Positions 9,599 to 27,000 of a stretch of 64,000 nucleotides of DNA are shown here, piece by piece. Numbering within the stretch: the stretch's first letter is position 1; each line of letters begins with the position of its first letter. Source of the stretch: Rhodothermaceae bacterium bin80 (GTDB lineage Bacteria; Bacteroidota; Rhodothermia; Rhodothermales; Bin80); the NCBI GenBank assembly GCA_002238805.1, contig MPNB01000004.1, positions 1 through 64,000 on the forward strand. Reading direction: 5' to 3'. The position numbers and the translations under genes are program-made. Below the pieces are notes generated by a model. That model had not been told where the DNA came from and made no database searches. It was given only the letters and a program-made list of their open reading frames with translations.

Positions 9599-12046
9599 TC
9601 AAGCACGTAACTCTGCGTCAAATTGCGCAGAAAGAGAACTAACAATTTTTTGAACTATGTGGTCAATCTCTTTATCGCGGAGGGTCCGATTTGCACCGAA
9701 GCGTAATGAAAATGCTACACTTTTTTTGTCTGGTGCAATTCCCTTACCCTTGTAGACATCAAATATATCTGTGCTCTTAAGAAGGGGCTGGCCAGCCTTG
9801 CGCACTTTGTTGATCATGGGGCCAACAGGCTGTTGCGAATCCACGACTATAGCAATATCCCGCTCAACAACAGGGTAACGTGGTACTGGCGTGTAGACGG
9901 TAGCTGGTTGTTCTTCACACATCAGTGCCAGTCTTGTCCAGTTAAATGTAGCAAAGAAAACGGGATCAGGTAAATCGTTGGCTGCCTGCATCTCATCCGA
10001 AAGACGGGCAATAGTCCCCACCCATTTTTTGTTCGCGCGAAGTGTTATGTGATGGGCTGTAATCTTTGTCGGCTCGAAGCTTGGCTCCATGCTCAGAGAA
10101 TCAAGGTTCAATATGCTCAACAGCTTCTCTACATCGCCCTTGATGTCAAAGAAATCTGCCAAAGGTATGCTACCATCCCAGCTCTGTGGTCGTATAGGGC
10201 CGCTTACACCAAAGAGGAGCACTTCATATTCGGAGTAATTTTCTATAAAGGTTGCTTCATGTTCGCTGAGATGAAATACATGTCCGAACTCGTAGAACCG
10301 GAGTGTCCGTTGTCCGTGATGAGTATTGTGCTGCATGGCATTCAGCATACCCGGAAGGAGTGAAGGCCGCAAGGTTGCCATGGAGCGGGATACCGCATTC
10401 AAGGTGCGTACAGGCGGATAGGCTGCTTCAATGACCGCTTGGCTGAACTGCATAGCCTGTTCATCAGGCAATAGGCTGTTTGTATAGATTTCCCGGAATC
10501 CATGACCGTTCAGGTAGGCGTGAACACGTTCGCGCATTAGGTCAATGGGGCGCGTGACCGGAACGGATGCAGGTAACGGTACAGATCGCGATTCTTTGAT
10601 TTGATCGAATCCGTAGATGCGTGCGATCTCCTCAATCAGATCAATCTCTAAATGGATGTCAGGCCGGTATGTAGGTACCGTGCACGAGATTACGTCACCT
10701 GCTTCATAGGGGTCAAATCCCAGAGATCCAAGGATTCGAAGGATATCCTTACATGGTATTTGTATGCCCAGAATTTTGGGTACACGGGCGAGCCGTAAAT
10801 TAAGCTTGGTTGTTGCCGGGGGTTGAGGATGCACATCCACAATACCGGGGGTAACCGATCCACCTCCCAGCTCTGCAATCAGTGCGGCTACATGTGCTGT
10901 GGCCCATGGCTGACTCGCTGTATCTACACCACGTTCGAATCTGTAGGATGCATCTGTTGCAATGCCCAGTGCTTTGGCAGATCGTCTTGTCCGGGACGGA
11001 CAGAACCAAGCTCCTTCAATTAATACATTGGAAGTAGCATCGTCGACCTCAGAGTTTTCTCCACCCATGATGCCTCCAATCGCAACAGGTCGCTCACCAT
11101 CACAAATCAGGATAACCCCCTCATTCAACGTATGCTTTTTGCCATCGAGTGTGGTAAATTCCTCCCCCTCGACGGACTCTCGGACAGTAATTCGTTGTCG
11201 AGCGATACGGTCATAGTCGAATGCGTGTAGAGGTTGTCCGCATTCATACATAACAAAATTGGTCGCATCGACAACATTGTTGATGGAGCGAAGCCCGATG
11301 GCTTCCAGTCGTCGCTTTAACCAGATAGGGGAGGGGCCGATTTTTACGCCTGTGACAATCATTGCCACGTATCGGTGGCACAAGTCAGGGCATTGAATAT
11401 CGACCTTGATGTGTTGTATCGTCTCACCGCCGTCCGAAGGAATGGTAACTTTGGGACGTTTTAGTGGCACATTTTGCAGTGCGGATACGTCTCGGGCTAT
11501 TCCTATGTGGCTGATTGCATCCGCCCGGTTTGGCGTGATGGCAACATCCAGTACAGTATCATTCACCTCCTGCCCTTCTCTCAGCAGATAGTCAAGCAGT
11601 GATTCACCGATAACAGCGGTTTCGGATAGAACCATGATACCGCTGTGGTCGTCAGACAACCCAAGCTCATCTTCTGCGCAGATCATCCCCATGGAGACCT
11701 GCCCACGTATTTTGGATTTTTTGATCTTGAGTACTTTTTCGCCCATGACCAGACGAGTCCCAATCGTTGCTACGGGTACCCGTTGGTCAGCTGCAACATT
11801 GGGGGCACCACAAACGATAGGGATCAATTCATCAGTTCCCAAATCAATATCGCAAAGCCTCAGGCGGTCAGCGTTGGGGTGCGGACGCACCGACTCCACG
11901 CGTCCGACGAATATGCCATCCAATGATGGACCAAGATGCAGCATGTCTTCAACCTCGAGTCCAGACATGGTCAAGGCATGTGCAAGGCCCTCCGGGGATA
12001 GTTCATGTGCCACGTACTCGGACAGCCAATTATAAGAGATCTTCAT
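9599..12046 (-). CDS. pheT: Phenylalanine--tRNA ligase beta subunit
   Basis: Large subunit of the alpha2beta2 enzyme that charges tRNA-Phe. The start MKISYNWLSEYV is typical. Order: EMAP/Trbp-type tRNA-binding domain (about residues 40-150, IVCGAPNVAADQRVPVA), B3/B4 editing domain, B5 domain, the core-like domain, and the C-terminal ferredoxin-fold anticodon-binding domain (VPRYPVVERDIAIVVD). The 815 aa length is normal. It begins 5 nt after pheS and is under the same predicted Phe attenuator. Confidence 0.97.
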   Translation of the reverse strand: MKISYNWLSEYVAHELSPEGLAHALTMSGLEVEDMLHLGPSLDGIFVGRVESVRPHPNADRLRLCDIDLGTDELIPIVCGAPNVAADQRVPVATIGTRLVMGEKVLKIKKSKIRGQVSMGMICAEDELGLSDDHSGIMVLSETAVIGESLLDYLLREGQEVNDTVLDVAITPNRADAISHIGIARDVSALQNVPLKRPKVTIPSDGGETIQHIKVDIQCPDLCHRYVAMIVTGVKIGPSPIWLKRRLEAIGLRSINNVVDATNFVMYECGQPLHAFDYDRIARQRITVRESVEGEEFTTLDGKKHTLNEGVILICDGERPVAIGGIMGGENSEVDDATSNVLIEGAWFCPSRTRRSAKALGIATDASYRFERGVDTASQPWATAHVAALIAELGGGSVTPGIVDVHPQPPATTKLNLRLARVPKILGIQIPCKDILRILGSLGFDPYEAGDVISCTVPTYRPDIHLEIDLIEEIARIYGFDQIKESRSVPLPASVPVTRPIDLMRERVHAYLNGHGFREIYTNSLLPDEQAMQFSQAVIEAAYPPVRTLNAVSRSMATLRPSLLPGMLNAMQHNTHHGQRTLRFYEFGHVFHLSEHEATFIENYSEYEVLLFGVSGPIRPQSWDGSIPLADFFDIKGDVEKLLSILNLDSLSMEPSFEPTKITAHHITLRANKKWVGTIARLSDEMQAANDLPDPVFFATFNWTRLALMCEEQPATVYTPVPRYPVVERDIAIVVDSQQPVGPMINKVRKAGQPLLKSTDIFDVYKGKGIAPDKKSVAFSLRFGANRTLRDKEIDHIVQKIVSSLSAQFDAELRA

Positions 12047-12051
12047 GGCAA

Positions 12052-13083
12052 TTAGAATTGCGCCAAAAATCGCGAATCGTTTTCGTAAAAGATGCGGATA
12101 TCATCGATGCCGTAGCGGAGCATGGCTGGGCGCTCTATGCCCATGCCGAAGGCGTATCCGGTATAGCGTTCGGAGTCAATACCTACGGCTTCAAGAACGT
12201 TAGGGTGTACCATGCCGCTACCCAGGATTTCCATCCAGCGTCCGCCCTTTGGATGATCAGGTAAGTTCCACCAGATGTCTACCTCACCACTCGGCTCCGT
12301 GAACGGAAAGAAGCTGGGACGGAATCGCATCTTGACATCGTTGCCGAAGAATGCACGTGCAAAATTGGAGAGCGTGTGTTTAAGGTCGACCATGGTTACG
12401 CCGTCATCGACGACTAGTCCTTCCACTTGATGAAACAGACAGTAGGACTTATAGGTGATTGCTTCATTGCGAAAAACTCGACCGGGTGCGATCAGGCGGA
12501 ATGGGGGCTCCCCGGCAACCATTGTTCGAATCTGCACGGGGGATGTATGTGTGCGCATCATAGCCCCGGCCCGGCCTTCTCCCGGCTCTTCAATGAAGAG
12601 TGTGTCCTGCATGTCGCGGGCGGGATGATCTGCCGGGAAATTCAACGCGGTGAAGTTATGCCAGTCATCCTCAATTTCAGGCCCCTCGGCGACCGCGAAG
12701 CCCATGTGTTCGAATATATCTGTGATCTTGGCCAAGGCAAGCGTAATGGGATGTCGGGATCCTGCCCACTGACTGTGTCGACCGGGGAGTGTAAGGTCAA
12801 TATCACGGGTATTTGTAGTTGTCACGCGGTGTTGCTCAATGGCAGATTCAAGCGCGGTTTGGGCTTTTTTACGCAGAGCATTGAGCAGCAGTCCGGCGCT
12901 GCGCCGGTCCTGTTTGGGTAGATGCGGAATGGTCTTGAAGAGTTGGGGGATCACACCACGTCTCTGCCCCAGGAACCGGATACGGAATTCTTCGGACTTG
13001 GCAGACGTGTCAAGTTTTGCTGCTGCAATCTCCTCTGTGAAGCTTGCAGTGGCTTTTTTCAGATACTCTAGATTTGTCTCCAT
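12052..13083 (-). CDS. pheS: Phenylalanine--tRNA ligase alpha subunit
   Basis: Catalytic class II subunit of PheRS. It has the N-terminal coiled coil that contacts tRNA, then the aminoacylation core with HPITLALAKITDIFEHMGF, the motif 2 region (RTHTSPVQIRTM, PGRVFRNEAITYKSYCLFHQ) and motif 3 (GYAFGMGIERPAMLRYGI). I chose METNLEYLKK at 13083 as start. A 20-residue upstream extension would run through the attenuator hairpin and its T-run, which argues against it. 343 aa is normal. Confidence 0.97.
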   Translation of the reverse strand: METNLEYLKKATASFTEEIAAAKLDTSAKSEEFRIRFLGQRRGVIPQLFKTIPHLPKQDRRSAGLLLNALRKKAQTALESAIEQHRVTTTNTRDIDLTLPGRHSQWAGSRHPITLALAKITDIFEHMGFAVAEGPEIEDDWHNFTALNFPADHPARDMQDTLFIEEPGEGRAGAMMRTHTSPVQIRTMVAGEPPFRLIAPGRVFRNEAITYKSYCLFHQVEGLVVDDGVTMVDLKHTLSNFARAFFGNDVKMRFRPSFFPFTEPSGEVDIWWNLPDHPKGGRWMEILGSGMVHPNVLEAVGIDSERYTGYAFGMGIERPAMLRYGIDDIRIFYENDSRFLAQF

Positions 13084-13087
13084 TCTA

Positions 13088-13129
13088 CCAAAACAAGAAA
13101 CCCGCCAAGCCTGCACGAGCAGGGGCGGG
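13088..13129 (-). terminator. Predicted intrinsic terminator of the pheST attenuator
   Basis: On the minus strand CCCGCC (13124-13129) pairs with GGCGGG, with an inner CCTGC/GCAGG stem and TCGT loop, followed by a T-rich tract (TTTCTTGTTTT, 13088-13100). It ends 5 nt before the pheS start. Its left arm is shared with the alternative antiterminator, so it looks conditional. Confidence 0.75.
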
Positions 13130-13159
13130 AATGTTCTCACCAATCTACATTCGGCCCCT
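13121..13159 (-). promoter_or_regulatory. Predicted antiterminator for pheST
   Basis: AGGGGC, starting at the second base of the leader stop codon (13159 downward), can pair with GCCCCT, the left arm of the terminator. GAATGT pairs with ACATTC just inside. That gives about 12 bp with a small internal loop, mutually exclusive with the terminator. A ribosome at the leader stop codon would cover its first arm; one stalled on the Phe codons would leave it free. Confidence 0.6.
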
Positions 13160-13208
13160 AGCCAAGTGAGGTGCCGCTAAAAAAGAATGAACTAGATACG
13201 TGTGCCAT
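13158..13208 (-). CDS. Phe leader peptide controlling pheST
   Basis: A 16-codon frame, MAHVSSSFFFSGTSLG then TAG, starts 2 nt after the rplT stop. It holds three consecutive Phe codons (TTC TTT TTT) just upstream of a terminator/antiterminator pair. This is the layout of amino-acid attenuators, such as the E. coli pheM leader of pheST. The sequence differs from PheM, so the similarity is of design rather than evident homology. Translation may depend on reinitiation by ribosomes finishing rplT. When Phe-tRNA is scarce, stalling on FFF should favour the antiterminator and pheST expression. Confidence 0.7.
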   Translation of the reverse strand: MAHVSSSFFFSGTSLG

Positions 13209-13210
13209 CG

Positions 13211-13561
13211 TCAAGTCCCATGAGCTTCCTGAACAACACGGGTAAAGATTGCAGGCTCATTCATGGCTAAATCTGCAAGCACCTTTCGATTGAGAGCGAT
13301 CCCCTCTTTACGAAGAGCGCCGGCTAGACGGGAATAAGTTGTGCCGTTCAGCCGGGCAGCTGCATTTATTCGTACAATCCAGAGTCGACGGAACTGCTGT
13401 TTACGTTTGCGGCGATCCCGATACGAGTATTGGAGTCCCTTTTCGACCGCATGTTTAGCTACGGTGTAGACCTTACTCCGGCTACCCCAATATCCTTTGG
13501 CCATACCAAGGATCTTCCTGCGTCGTTGTCGTGAAGCTACTCTATTGCGTGCGCGTGGCAT
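13211..13561 (-). CDS. rplT: Large ribosomal subunit protein bL20
   Basis: Basic 116-aa protein of the 50S subunit, needed early in assembly. The start [26 protein letters not shown] is typical of L20, with the [20 protein letters not shown]-binding stretch and [19 protein letters not shown]. It follows rpmI within 33 bp in the conserved infC-rpmI-rplT order. In other bacteria L20 (or L20/IF3) represses this operon; I did not identify an L20-binding structure here. Confidence 0.97.
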
Positions 13562-13593
13562 AATTTTCAGCGAATTTAGGGATCACCTATTGA

Positions 13594-13794
13594 TCACTTG
13601 GAGGCACCCAGTAGACGATTCATGCGAGGCTCATCGCTTTTGTCGACGAGCGTCTTCTTACCAAGCTCCCGTTTGCGTTTGCGGCTCTTCTTGGTCAGTA
13701 TATGACTCTTGAAGGCATGCGCGCGCTTCAGGCGCCCGGATGCAGTGCGGACAAATCGTTTTTTGGCTCCGCTGTTGGATTTCGTCTTCGGCAT
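13594..13794 (-). CDS. rpmI: Large ribosomal subunit protein bL35
   Basis: 66-aa very basic 50S protein. I chose [14 protein letters not shown] at 13794 because it matches the family start; 11 further in-frame codons upstream read poorly. [20 protein letters not shown] is the typical L35 core. It lies between infC and rplT in the usual order. Confidence 0.95.
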
Positions 13795-13863
13795 GGTTCC
13801 GAAATAATCAAGACGCAGGTTAACCACGACAAGATCTATTCTGTTCCATCAAAGGGCAGCCCC

Positions 13864-14382
13864 TCACTTGGTTTTCAGGGGAGTAAGGATGGCGGTCATG
13901 CGCCGGCCTTCCATTCGGGGTTCCTGATCCAGTTTTGCAACGTCTTTCAGTGCATCAACGAAGCGTGCAAGGATGACCATCCCCTGTTCCTTGTAGATAA
14001 TATCCCGCCCTCTGAACTGCACATAGGCACGCACCTTGTGGCCGTCGGAGAGGAATTCGTGGGCGTGCTTTGTTTTGAACTGGAAGTCATGCGTATCGGT
14101 GCGAGGTCGAAACCGGATTTCTTTGAGTTGCGTGTGATGCTGCCTTTTGCGAGCATCGCGCTCCTTCTTATTCTTCTCGTAGAGAAACTTGCCGTAGTCC
14201 ATAATCTTACAGACTGGAGGATCGGCATTTGGTGCAATTTCTACGAGATCCATGGACTGCTCTCCAGCCATATCCAAGGCTTTCTGCAGTTGGTACACGC
14301 CATGCTTACCTCCCGGATCAACTACGCGGACTACGTCTGCCTCAATGGCGTCGTTAATACGTGTTTGTATACGTTTTGCGAT
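13864..14382 (-). CDS. infC: Translation initiation factor IF-3, non-canonical start codon
   Basis: IF3 binds the 30S subunit and checks start-codon and initiator-tRNA pairing. The core is clear: MDLVEIAPNADPPVCKIMDY, LYEKNKKERDARKR linker, and the C-terminal KEIRFRPRTDTHDF domain. The family's N-terminal segment (RINDAIEADVVRVVDPGGK) continues upstream of the first GTG (14298) up to an in-frame TAA at 14391-14393. In this interval no ATG, GTG or TTG exists. The start must therefore be ATC (14382 or 14385) or ATT (14358), or the protein would lose its N-terminal strand. AUU starts on infC are known from E. coli, where they allow autoregulation. About 172 aa results. Confidence 0.9.
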   Translation of the reverse strand: MAKRIQTRINDAIEADVVRVVDPGGKHGVYQLQKALDMAGEQSMDLVEIAPNADPPVCKIMDYGKFLYEKNKKERDARKRQHHTQLKEIRFRPRTDTHDFQFKTKHAHEFLSDGHKVRAYVQFRGRDIIYKEQGMVILARFVDALKDVAKLDQEPRMEGRRMTAILTPLKTK

Positions 14383-14434
14383 GATGTTATGAGTTTATGT
14401 TTTGAAGAAAGACAACCCAAGGCATTTACCTTGG

Positions 14435-14511
14435 TGGTGGGTCCTAATGGATTCGAACCATCGACCTCTACGATGTCAACGTAGCGCTCTAACCAACTGA
14501 GCTAAGGACCC
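14435..14511 (-). tRNA. tRNA-Val (anticodon GAC), CCA encoded
   Basis: Cloverleaf on the minus strand: acceptor GGGTCCT/AGGACCC, D stem GCTC/GAGC, anticodon stem CTACG/CGTAG with loop TTGACAT (anticodon GAC), T loop TTCGAAT, and an encoded CCA. Length 77 nt. It lies upstream of infC on the same strand and may share its transcript. Confidence 0.95.
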
Positions 14512-14613
14512 CTACACACTGCATTGCAAATTACGGCTTTTAACGCATTAGATGTATTATGTGTGCAGGGCCAAGATATTGATGTGGCAAACTATATTGG
14601 CTGTACACATTGA

Positions 14614-15243
14614 TTATAGTGTAAGCGCAAGTTTGAGGGTTGGTCCAGGGGTAACAGCAACTTGCAATGAGCTCTCACGCTTACGCCGAGTGGTAAGCAA
14701 GGCTGATACGGCAGAAATCAAACGGTTAGCCACGAGTGCGGCGATAAAGCTGCCCCGTCGTTGCGCCCAGGATTCAGCATCTCCCCGAAGATTTCTATAC
14801 CGTTGAAAATCCCGCTCGCTAGTCCAGGCCCATTGAAATGCCGGATCATCCACGTATGAGACCAGATCTACGCGTCGGCTGCGCAGTTGTGCTTCGCGGT
14901 AATCATGGGAGGAGAGGTGATTGCCGATTGTAACATAGAACCGTCGGTCTTTCCCGGTGGTTGACACCCCCGCGTAGGATGCCGCCCATGATTGATAGCT
15001 TTGAACCAGCTGACCGCGTTGCCATTCACTGGTCACAAGCCCGGCCAGGAGTACGGCATCGGCGATAGTGTAGAGAGCGGCGCGCCGATTCCACTTGTTT
15101 CCATTAGCATACCTATGCCCCAAACCCGGCAAAGCAATACTGTAAGCCGCTGCTTTTGCGGGGCGCAAAGGGGCTTGAGCAACGGACTCAACTGTACTTA
15201 GCAAAAAGAATACAAGGAAAATTAAGGGGATTAATGAGCGCAT
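14614..15243 (-). CDS. DUF5683-like membrane-associated protein
   Basis: 209 aa with a signal peptide (MRSLIPLIFLVFFLLSTVES, cleavage near AQA) followed by KAAAYSIALPGLGHRYANGN, the 'PGxGxxYxG' motif seen in Bacteroidota proteins of the DUF5683 type. A hydrophobic segment (ALYTIADAVLLAGLV) and a polar middle follow, then a second hydrophobic region near residues 165-185. Function unknown; probably an envelope protein. It is probably a single-gene unit, with tRNA-Val downstream on the same strand. Confidence 0.7.
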   Translation of the reverse strand: MRSLIPLIFLVFFLLSTVESVAQAPLRPAKAAAYSIALPGLGHRYANGNKWNRRAALYTIADAVLLAGLVTSEWQRGQLVQSYQSWAASYAGVSTTGKDRRFYVTIGNHLSSHDYREAQLRSRRVDLVSYVDDPAFQWAWTSERDFQRYRNLRGDAESWAQRRGSFIAALVANRLISAVSALLTTRRKRESSLQVAVTPGPTLKLALTL

Positions 15244-26665: not shown

Positions 26666-26678
26666 TTTTCTGTGGCGG

Positions 26679-27000
26679 GTGCGAACCCCGCCCAACACCT
26701 GTCGCTCCGGTTGGTAGCGGCCTTAGCGCATTATGGAGGTAACGAAATGATATGAAGAACTGAGGTTTAACGAGCTACGCGAGTAGCTTAGCGACCATGC
26801 GGGTCGGAACGTGCAGTGAGCACCGAGCAGGCCTCGAAACGGGTAATGTGTGTGTTGACCTTCCGGCAATATGGGGAAGACCGAAGCGTCTCGGGAAGTC
26901 CCATTTTATTCATCACGATTTGGATACAGGCTACAAAGTGTGAATTTGGTTGGGGGGTGCGTCAGGATTTCCAGTGCGGGATGAAAAGTAAGCACTAGCC
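26679..27000 (+). mobile_element. 5' relic of a group II intron (domain I-like)
   Basis: Starts with GTGCG, the typical group II 5' end. It continues with features resembling domain I: GGAGGTAACG, a TGAAGAACTGAGGTTTAACG segment, an AGCTACGCGAGTAGCT hairpin, and an AAACGGGTAATGTGTG stretch. It ends before any reverse transcriptase, where sequence near the IS1380 element takes over. It lies just after a terminator-like hairpin, a preferred target of some (class C) introns. The right limit is approximate. It need not be the other half of the relic at 20.4-20.8 kb. Confidence 0.45.

Follow-up and report, generated by a model that had tools for sequence, protein, structure and literature searches.

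A predicted phenylalanine-codon attenuator between rplT and pheST in Rhodothermales

In E. coli, pheST-ihfA is controlled by the pheM attenuator (Rfam Phe_leader, RF01859), whose leader peptide is Phe-rich and 14 residues long. The classical trpL and hisL attenuators of Proteobacteria likewise combine a cognate-codon leader peptide with RNA segments pairing as 1:2, 2:3 and 3:4. In 2010, leader-peptide systems were on record in Proteobacteria and Actinobacteria only, before the Firmicutes case presented in that year's paper (PMC2965389). Within the wider Bacteroidota group, the transcriptome of Flavobacterium psychrophilum strongly suggested leader-peptide attenuation upstream of amino-acid biosynthesis operons, unlike the case described here, and pheS is unmentioned in the main text of that study (PMC9723704). 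Our literature search, whose coverage was incomplete so that an earlier mention may exist, found none of pheST attenuation in Rhodothermales. Here we describe a locus of this order for which ribosome-mediated transcription attenuation of pheST by charged tRNA-Phe is the best explanation, with a probability of roughly 0.88 as judged from sequence comparison and folding models. It shares with trpL and hisL the cognate-codon leader and the three alternative pairings; it differs in operon and amino acid and, from its sequence, in having the leader inside an operon and not at a promoter.

The window, that is, the whole stretch of 64,000 nucleotides analysed, comes from a genome belonging to Rhodothermales. 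The gene order on its minus strand is tRNA-Val, infC, rpmI, rplT, leader, pheS, pheT, a ZapB-like ORF (score under the Pfam cut-off) and zapA. The features of the rplT-pheT region are as follows.

13211..13561, minus strand: rplT, upstream gene, its stop codon abutting the leader (Pfam Ribosomal_L20)
13158..13208, minus strand: leader peptide ORF, 16 codons plus TAG, MAHVSSSFFFSGTSLG, conserved in 49 rplT-pheS gaps of the order
13179..13187, minus strand: regulatory codons TTC TTT TTT (Phe8-Phe10), read directly
13169..13176, minus strand: segment 1, putative protector arm CGGCACCT, pairing with 13159-13152; 1:2 covariation in relatives
13147..13163, minus strand: segment 2, antiterminator 5′ arm by duplex folding, including the leader stop codon
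13118..13134, minus strand: segment 3, antiterminator 3′ arm, sharing 13129-13119 with the terminator
13090..13129, minus strand: intrinsic terminator (segments 3:4), 11 bp stem, 4-nt loop, 3-nt bulge, then TTTCTTGTTTT
12052..13083, minus strand: pheS, first gene of the predicted regulated pair (Pfam tRNA-synt_2d, Phe_tRNA-synt_N)
9599..12046, minus strand: pheT, second gene of the predicted regulated pair (Pfam B3_4, tRNA_synthFbeta, FDX-ACB, B5)

Direct reading of the minus strand gave the leader as ATG GCA CAC GTA TCT AGT TCA TTC TTT TTT AGC GGC ACC TCA CTT GGC TAG, with the ATG at 13208-13206 and the TAG at 13160-13158. It starts 2 nt past the rplT stop (TGA, 13213-13211) and ends 74 nt before the pheS start (ATG, 13083-13081), so the 16-codon leader with three Phe codons reported 2 nt after rplT by the first-pass annotation was found as described. 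So was the terminator placed just ahead of pheS, the first structural gene: its stem CCCGCC-CCTGC-tcgt-GCAGG-ctt-GGCGGG occupies 13129-13101 and its tail TTTCTTGTTTT 13100-13090, ending 6 nt from the pheS ATG. It has an energy of -19.9 kcal/mol and is kept in almost all relatives. The antiterminator proposed to exclude it does take up the terminator's 5′ arm, but by duplex folding it measures 15 bp (GGC/AGGGGC/GAATGT at 13163-13147 with ACATTC/GCCCCTGCT at 13134-13118) and not about 12, and its first arm starts 3 nt ahead of the leader's stop codon, not at it. The protector, absent from the earlier annotation, begins right after the Phe codons and is weak in the window (CGGCaCCT at 13176-13169 with AGGgGCCG at 13159-13152). 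Taken alone, the window sequence is no more stably folded than shuffled versions (z -0.60), and it is the comparison with relatives that settles the case for an attenuator.

Further upstream on the minus strand, infC (13864-14385) has no in-frame ATG, GTG or TTG after the preceding stop and ahead of the conserved N-terminal part of IF3. Its start codon must, as read, be ATC, ATA or ATT, and is likely the ATC at 14385. This recalls E. coli IF3, whose start codon is also non-standard; there, autoregulation uses the AUU start. A small hairpin with a T-rich tail at 14417-14434 (minus), between tRNA-Val(GAC) and infC, may be a terminator of the tRNA or a leader element of infC. Elsewhere in the window, 26673-26814 on the plus strand matched an Rfam group II intron (D1-D4-4, 54.6 bits).

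The proposed mechanism would run as follows. Since a weak search for the Bacteroidota-type promoter element TAnnTTTG found none on the minus strand in 12900-14700, transcription is assumed to come from upstream of infC. On transcripts passing through rplT, the leader would be translated by ribosomes finishing that gene, a coupling that is probable in view of the 2-nt spacing or, in other leaders, an ATGA overlap. With ample Phe-tRNA, the ribosome would reach the leader stop codon inside segment 2, so that segment 3 would be free, terminator 3:4 would form and pheST would go untranscribed. With scarce Phe-tRNA, the ribosome would stall at the Phe codons and cover segment 1, so that segment 2 would be free for segment 3 and pheST would be transcribed. 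With no ribosome, 1:2 pairing and termination would be expected in most relatives; the window has a weak protector.

Ninety rplT loci of the order were read, 87 of them with pheS directly downstream. A leader ORF of 12-21 codons was called in 49 of the 87 readable rplT-pheS gaps and none in the other 38; one uncertain possible leader (L139) was left out of the 49. These 49 Phe leaders before pheS would each provide a short ORF with cognate codons upstream of the predicted regulated gene. Phe makes up 99 of their 791 residues (12.5%), encoded by TTT 71 times and TTC 28 times, TTT being favoured relative to a 31% background. The last Phe lies 5-7 codons ahead of the leader stop in 39 of the 49. 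In 32 the leader starts no more than 8 nt from the rplT stop, with an exact ATGA overlap in 12, and three close relatives (L006-L008) have their leader start codon within rplT. The peptides themselves are diverse (e.g. MKQVGSTRFFSVRATGL, MSNPIQYRFFTITPIAC, MRITRRFSSCPTR, MPNPFFFLGALLG); constant despite this diversity are Phe, the Phe-to-stop distance and a stop codon at or close to where segment 2 begins. The first-pass annotation had proposed aligning the rplT-pheS gaps of relatives for conserved Phe codons and compensatory stem changes, and both were found.

In the f13 subclade a single Phe codon is left, the preceding Arg codon CGA being equally conserved. A subclade comprising L131-L150 and L166 has just one Phe codon (e.g. 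MRITRRFSSCPTR) but retains every part of the attenuator; in theory, a single regulatory codon lowers sensitivity (PMC1183508). Outside the window's family, in leaders L098-L166, the regulatory Phe is preceded by an Arg codon that is nearly always CGA, wobble base included, and CGA is rare, accounting for 7.8% of the Arg codons of rplT and pheS. Pausing or a nucleotide-level constraint are the only explanations that we can offer for it.

Arms 1 and 2 were found to pair despite strong divergence, as in GCGTTCGCGCC/GGGGCGCTGAACGT (L102), CAACAGCCCTACC/GGTGGTGCTGTT (L134) and CGGCACCTT/AGGGGCCG (L006), and likewise arms 2 and 3, as in AGGGGCCGAATG/CATTCCCGCCCCT (window), GTTGAAGGTGG/CCTCCTTCAAC (L134) and GTAACCGGGGCG/CGCCCCTGTTA (L102). 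Helices were counted in an alignment of 33 sequences, and the counts compared with slid and shuffled controls. For the 1:2 helix, 72.7% of cells were paired versus at most 57.8% when slid, and the covariation score was 0.258 versus 0.193 shuffled (1/500). For the 2:3 helix, 75.9% of cells were paired versus at most 58.9% when slid, with both-side changes of AU/UA, GC/AU and AU/CG; its covariation score reached only 28/500 against shuffle control (a), and two other 2:3 measures gave no excess over shuffles in this alignment. These counts support both helices, 1:2 more strongly than 2:3. When arms were swapped among 17 clusters, own pairing exceeded swapped pairing for 1:2 (-20.3 versus -18.1, 23/20000) and for 2:3 (-17.6 versus -16.4, 246/20000), the compared sequences being related, so that these conservation and covariation statistics are not independent. 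Mean fold z over 33 representatives was -1.13 (1:2) and -1.04 (2:3); in gaps as rich in GC as these, duplex z-scores against shuffled upstream sequence alone are noisy. The terminator arms are nearly invariant and therefore give no covariation evidence. RNAalifold on the 33-sequence alignment recovered the invariant terminator alone, since the register of arms 1 and 2 differs from family to family, and for this reason the counts of named structures and the swap tests were used instead.

The switch was also modelled by folding transcripts cut off at the terminator loop under three conditions, with a ribosome mask over the last Phe codon, with one over the stop codon and with none, taking as readout the partition-function probability that upstream sequence holds the terminator's 5′ arm. 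Mean antitermination over 34 representatives was 0.68 (Phe), 0.34 (stop) and 0.42 (no ribosome), and in 48 of the 49 leaders a mask on the last Phe codon gave more antitermination than one on the stop. In the same representatives the Phe-minus-stop difference was +0.335 (shuffled, 0.02 to 0.16) and the Phe-minus-none difference +0.263 (shuffled, -0.06 to +0.03); the latter rise is not trivial, as masking normally removes pairing partners. Shuffling the stretch from the Phe codons to the terminator abolished the switch. In this model, antiterminator and protector would exclude each other and a stalled ribosome would free segment 2, with the protector weak in the window. The window's own sequence gave 0.80 with no ribosome, 0.80 for Phe and 0.57 for stop, a modest drop, and is thus predicted to be read through without any translation.

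All 20 class outgroups sampled, and many Rhodothermales, have a plain terminator in this gap, and the single-sequence fold of the window is not significant, as would be expected if the hairpin were a constitutive infC-rpmI-rplT terminator, pheS had its own promoter and the ORF were a chance frame. Conservation of the leader, its Phe codons, the stop-to-helix geometry and both alternative helices, with compensatory changes, makes this very improbable; the lack of a TAnnTTTG element speaks, weakly, against the separate promoter. The very short rplT-leader spacing could also mean that rplT ribosomes reinitiate at the leader and aid pheS translation without attenuation, and a reinitiation role has been proposed for leader genes lying about 10-11 nt from the next gene start (PMC4833913). 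Here the 74 nt to pheS contain a strong terminator, and neither Phe codons nor switching helices would be explained, so we regard this as highly improbable.

An equally slim chance attaches to a switch that senses L20, a small ligand or a T-box-like tRNA contact, the Phe codons being incidental. The f13 leaders, with one Phe codon and a CGA as conserved as it, would fit such a switch. Against it, no Rfam model, T-box and ribosomal-protein leaders included, matched the region at E<=10, and hence no T-box lies before pheS by covariance search; the window's family retains Phe while using both of its codons; and the mask model switches by ribosome position alone. For attenuation by charged tRNA-Phe, a tentative and rather doubtful extension is a dual-input attenuator in a ribosomal-protein operon, responding to Phe-tRNA charging and to rpmI-rplT translation, with one subclade using a single Phe after the conserved rare CGA. 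In E. coli, L20 represses rpmI-rplT translation; were the leader translated by rplT-arriving ribosomes only, as the ATGA overlap suggests, pheST read-through would depend on both inputs.

Comparison with E. coli pheM found the same regulated genes, place after rplT, Phe-rich leader, terminator/antiterminator logic and R-F-F motif. The ribosomal-protein-operon setting, pointed out in the first-pass annotation, is shared, pheM-pheST directly following rplT there too. The spacings differ, being 122 nt (rplT-pheM) and 283 nt (pheM-pheS) in E. coli versus 2 and 74 nt in the window, and the start of the Rhodothermales leader adjoins the rplT stop or overlaps it. RF01859 exceeded its gathering cut-off in none of 114 genomes of the order, the E. 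coli control matching, and did not match the window at E<=10. One sub-threshold match (L172) was rejected as a bidirectional terminator at an unrelated place. Among the relatives read, the leader is confined to Rhodothermales, the outgroups being leaderless. By these searches the Rhodothermales attenuator is a separate family, not recognisably homologous to the proteobacterial one, which bears out the suggestion of an independent Phe-codon attenuator of pheST outside Proteobacteria. Within the source genome no further attenuators were found: pheA directly follows argS without a leader, and His-codon runs, examined as attenuator leaders, proved not to be leaders.

The alternative suggestion of an ancient attenuator was not supported. 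In the class's other families, 20 of 20 sampled loci carry a plain terminator with no leader ahead of it, and a plain terminator likewise fills the gap in those read from Chlorobiota, Ignavibacteria and Balneola. Most likely, then, the leader arose inside Rhodothermales. The shared CGATTT core suggests that this probably happened once and was followed by repeated losses. In the L20+PheS tree (107 rows) the first-branching clade within the order has no leader, and 11 changes of the leader label are required, of which well-supported branches force at least 6; the number would be lowered by L104, leaderless in the tree and later called a leader.

The outgroups thus display how an attenuator may be assembled: a plain terminator came first, one lineage then probably put a Phe-codon leader ahead of it, and several lineages afterwards seem to have dropped the leader and kept the terminator. 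The outcome is an apparent convergence, in another phylum, on the logic, gene and neighbourhood of E. coli pheM. Its 49 natural variants, those with a single Phe codon included, may serve for relating sensitivity to regulatory codons.
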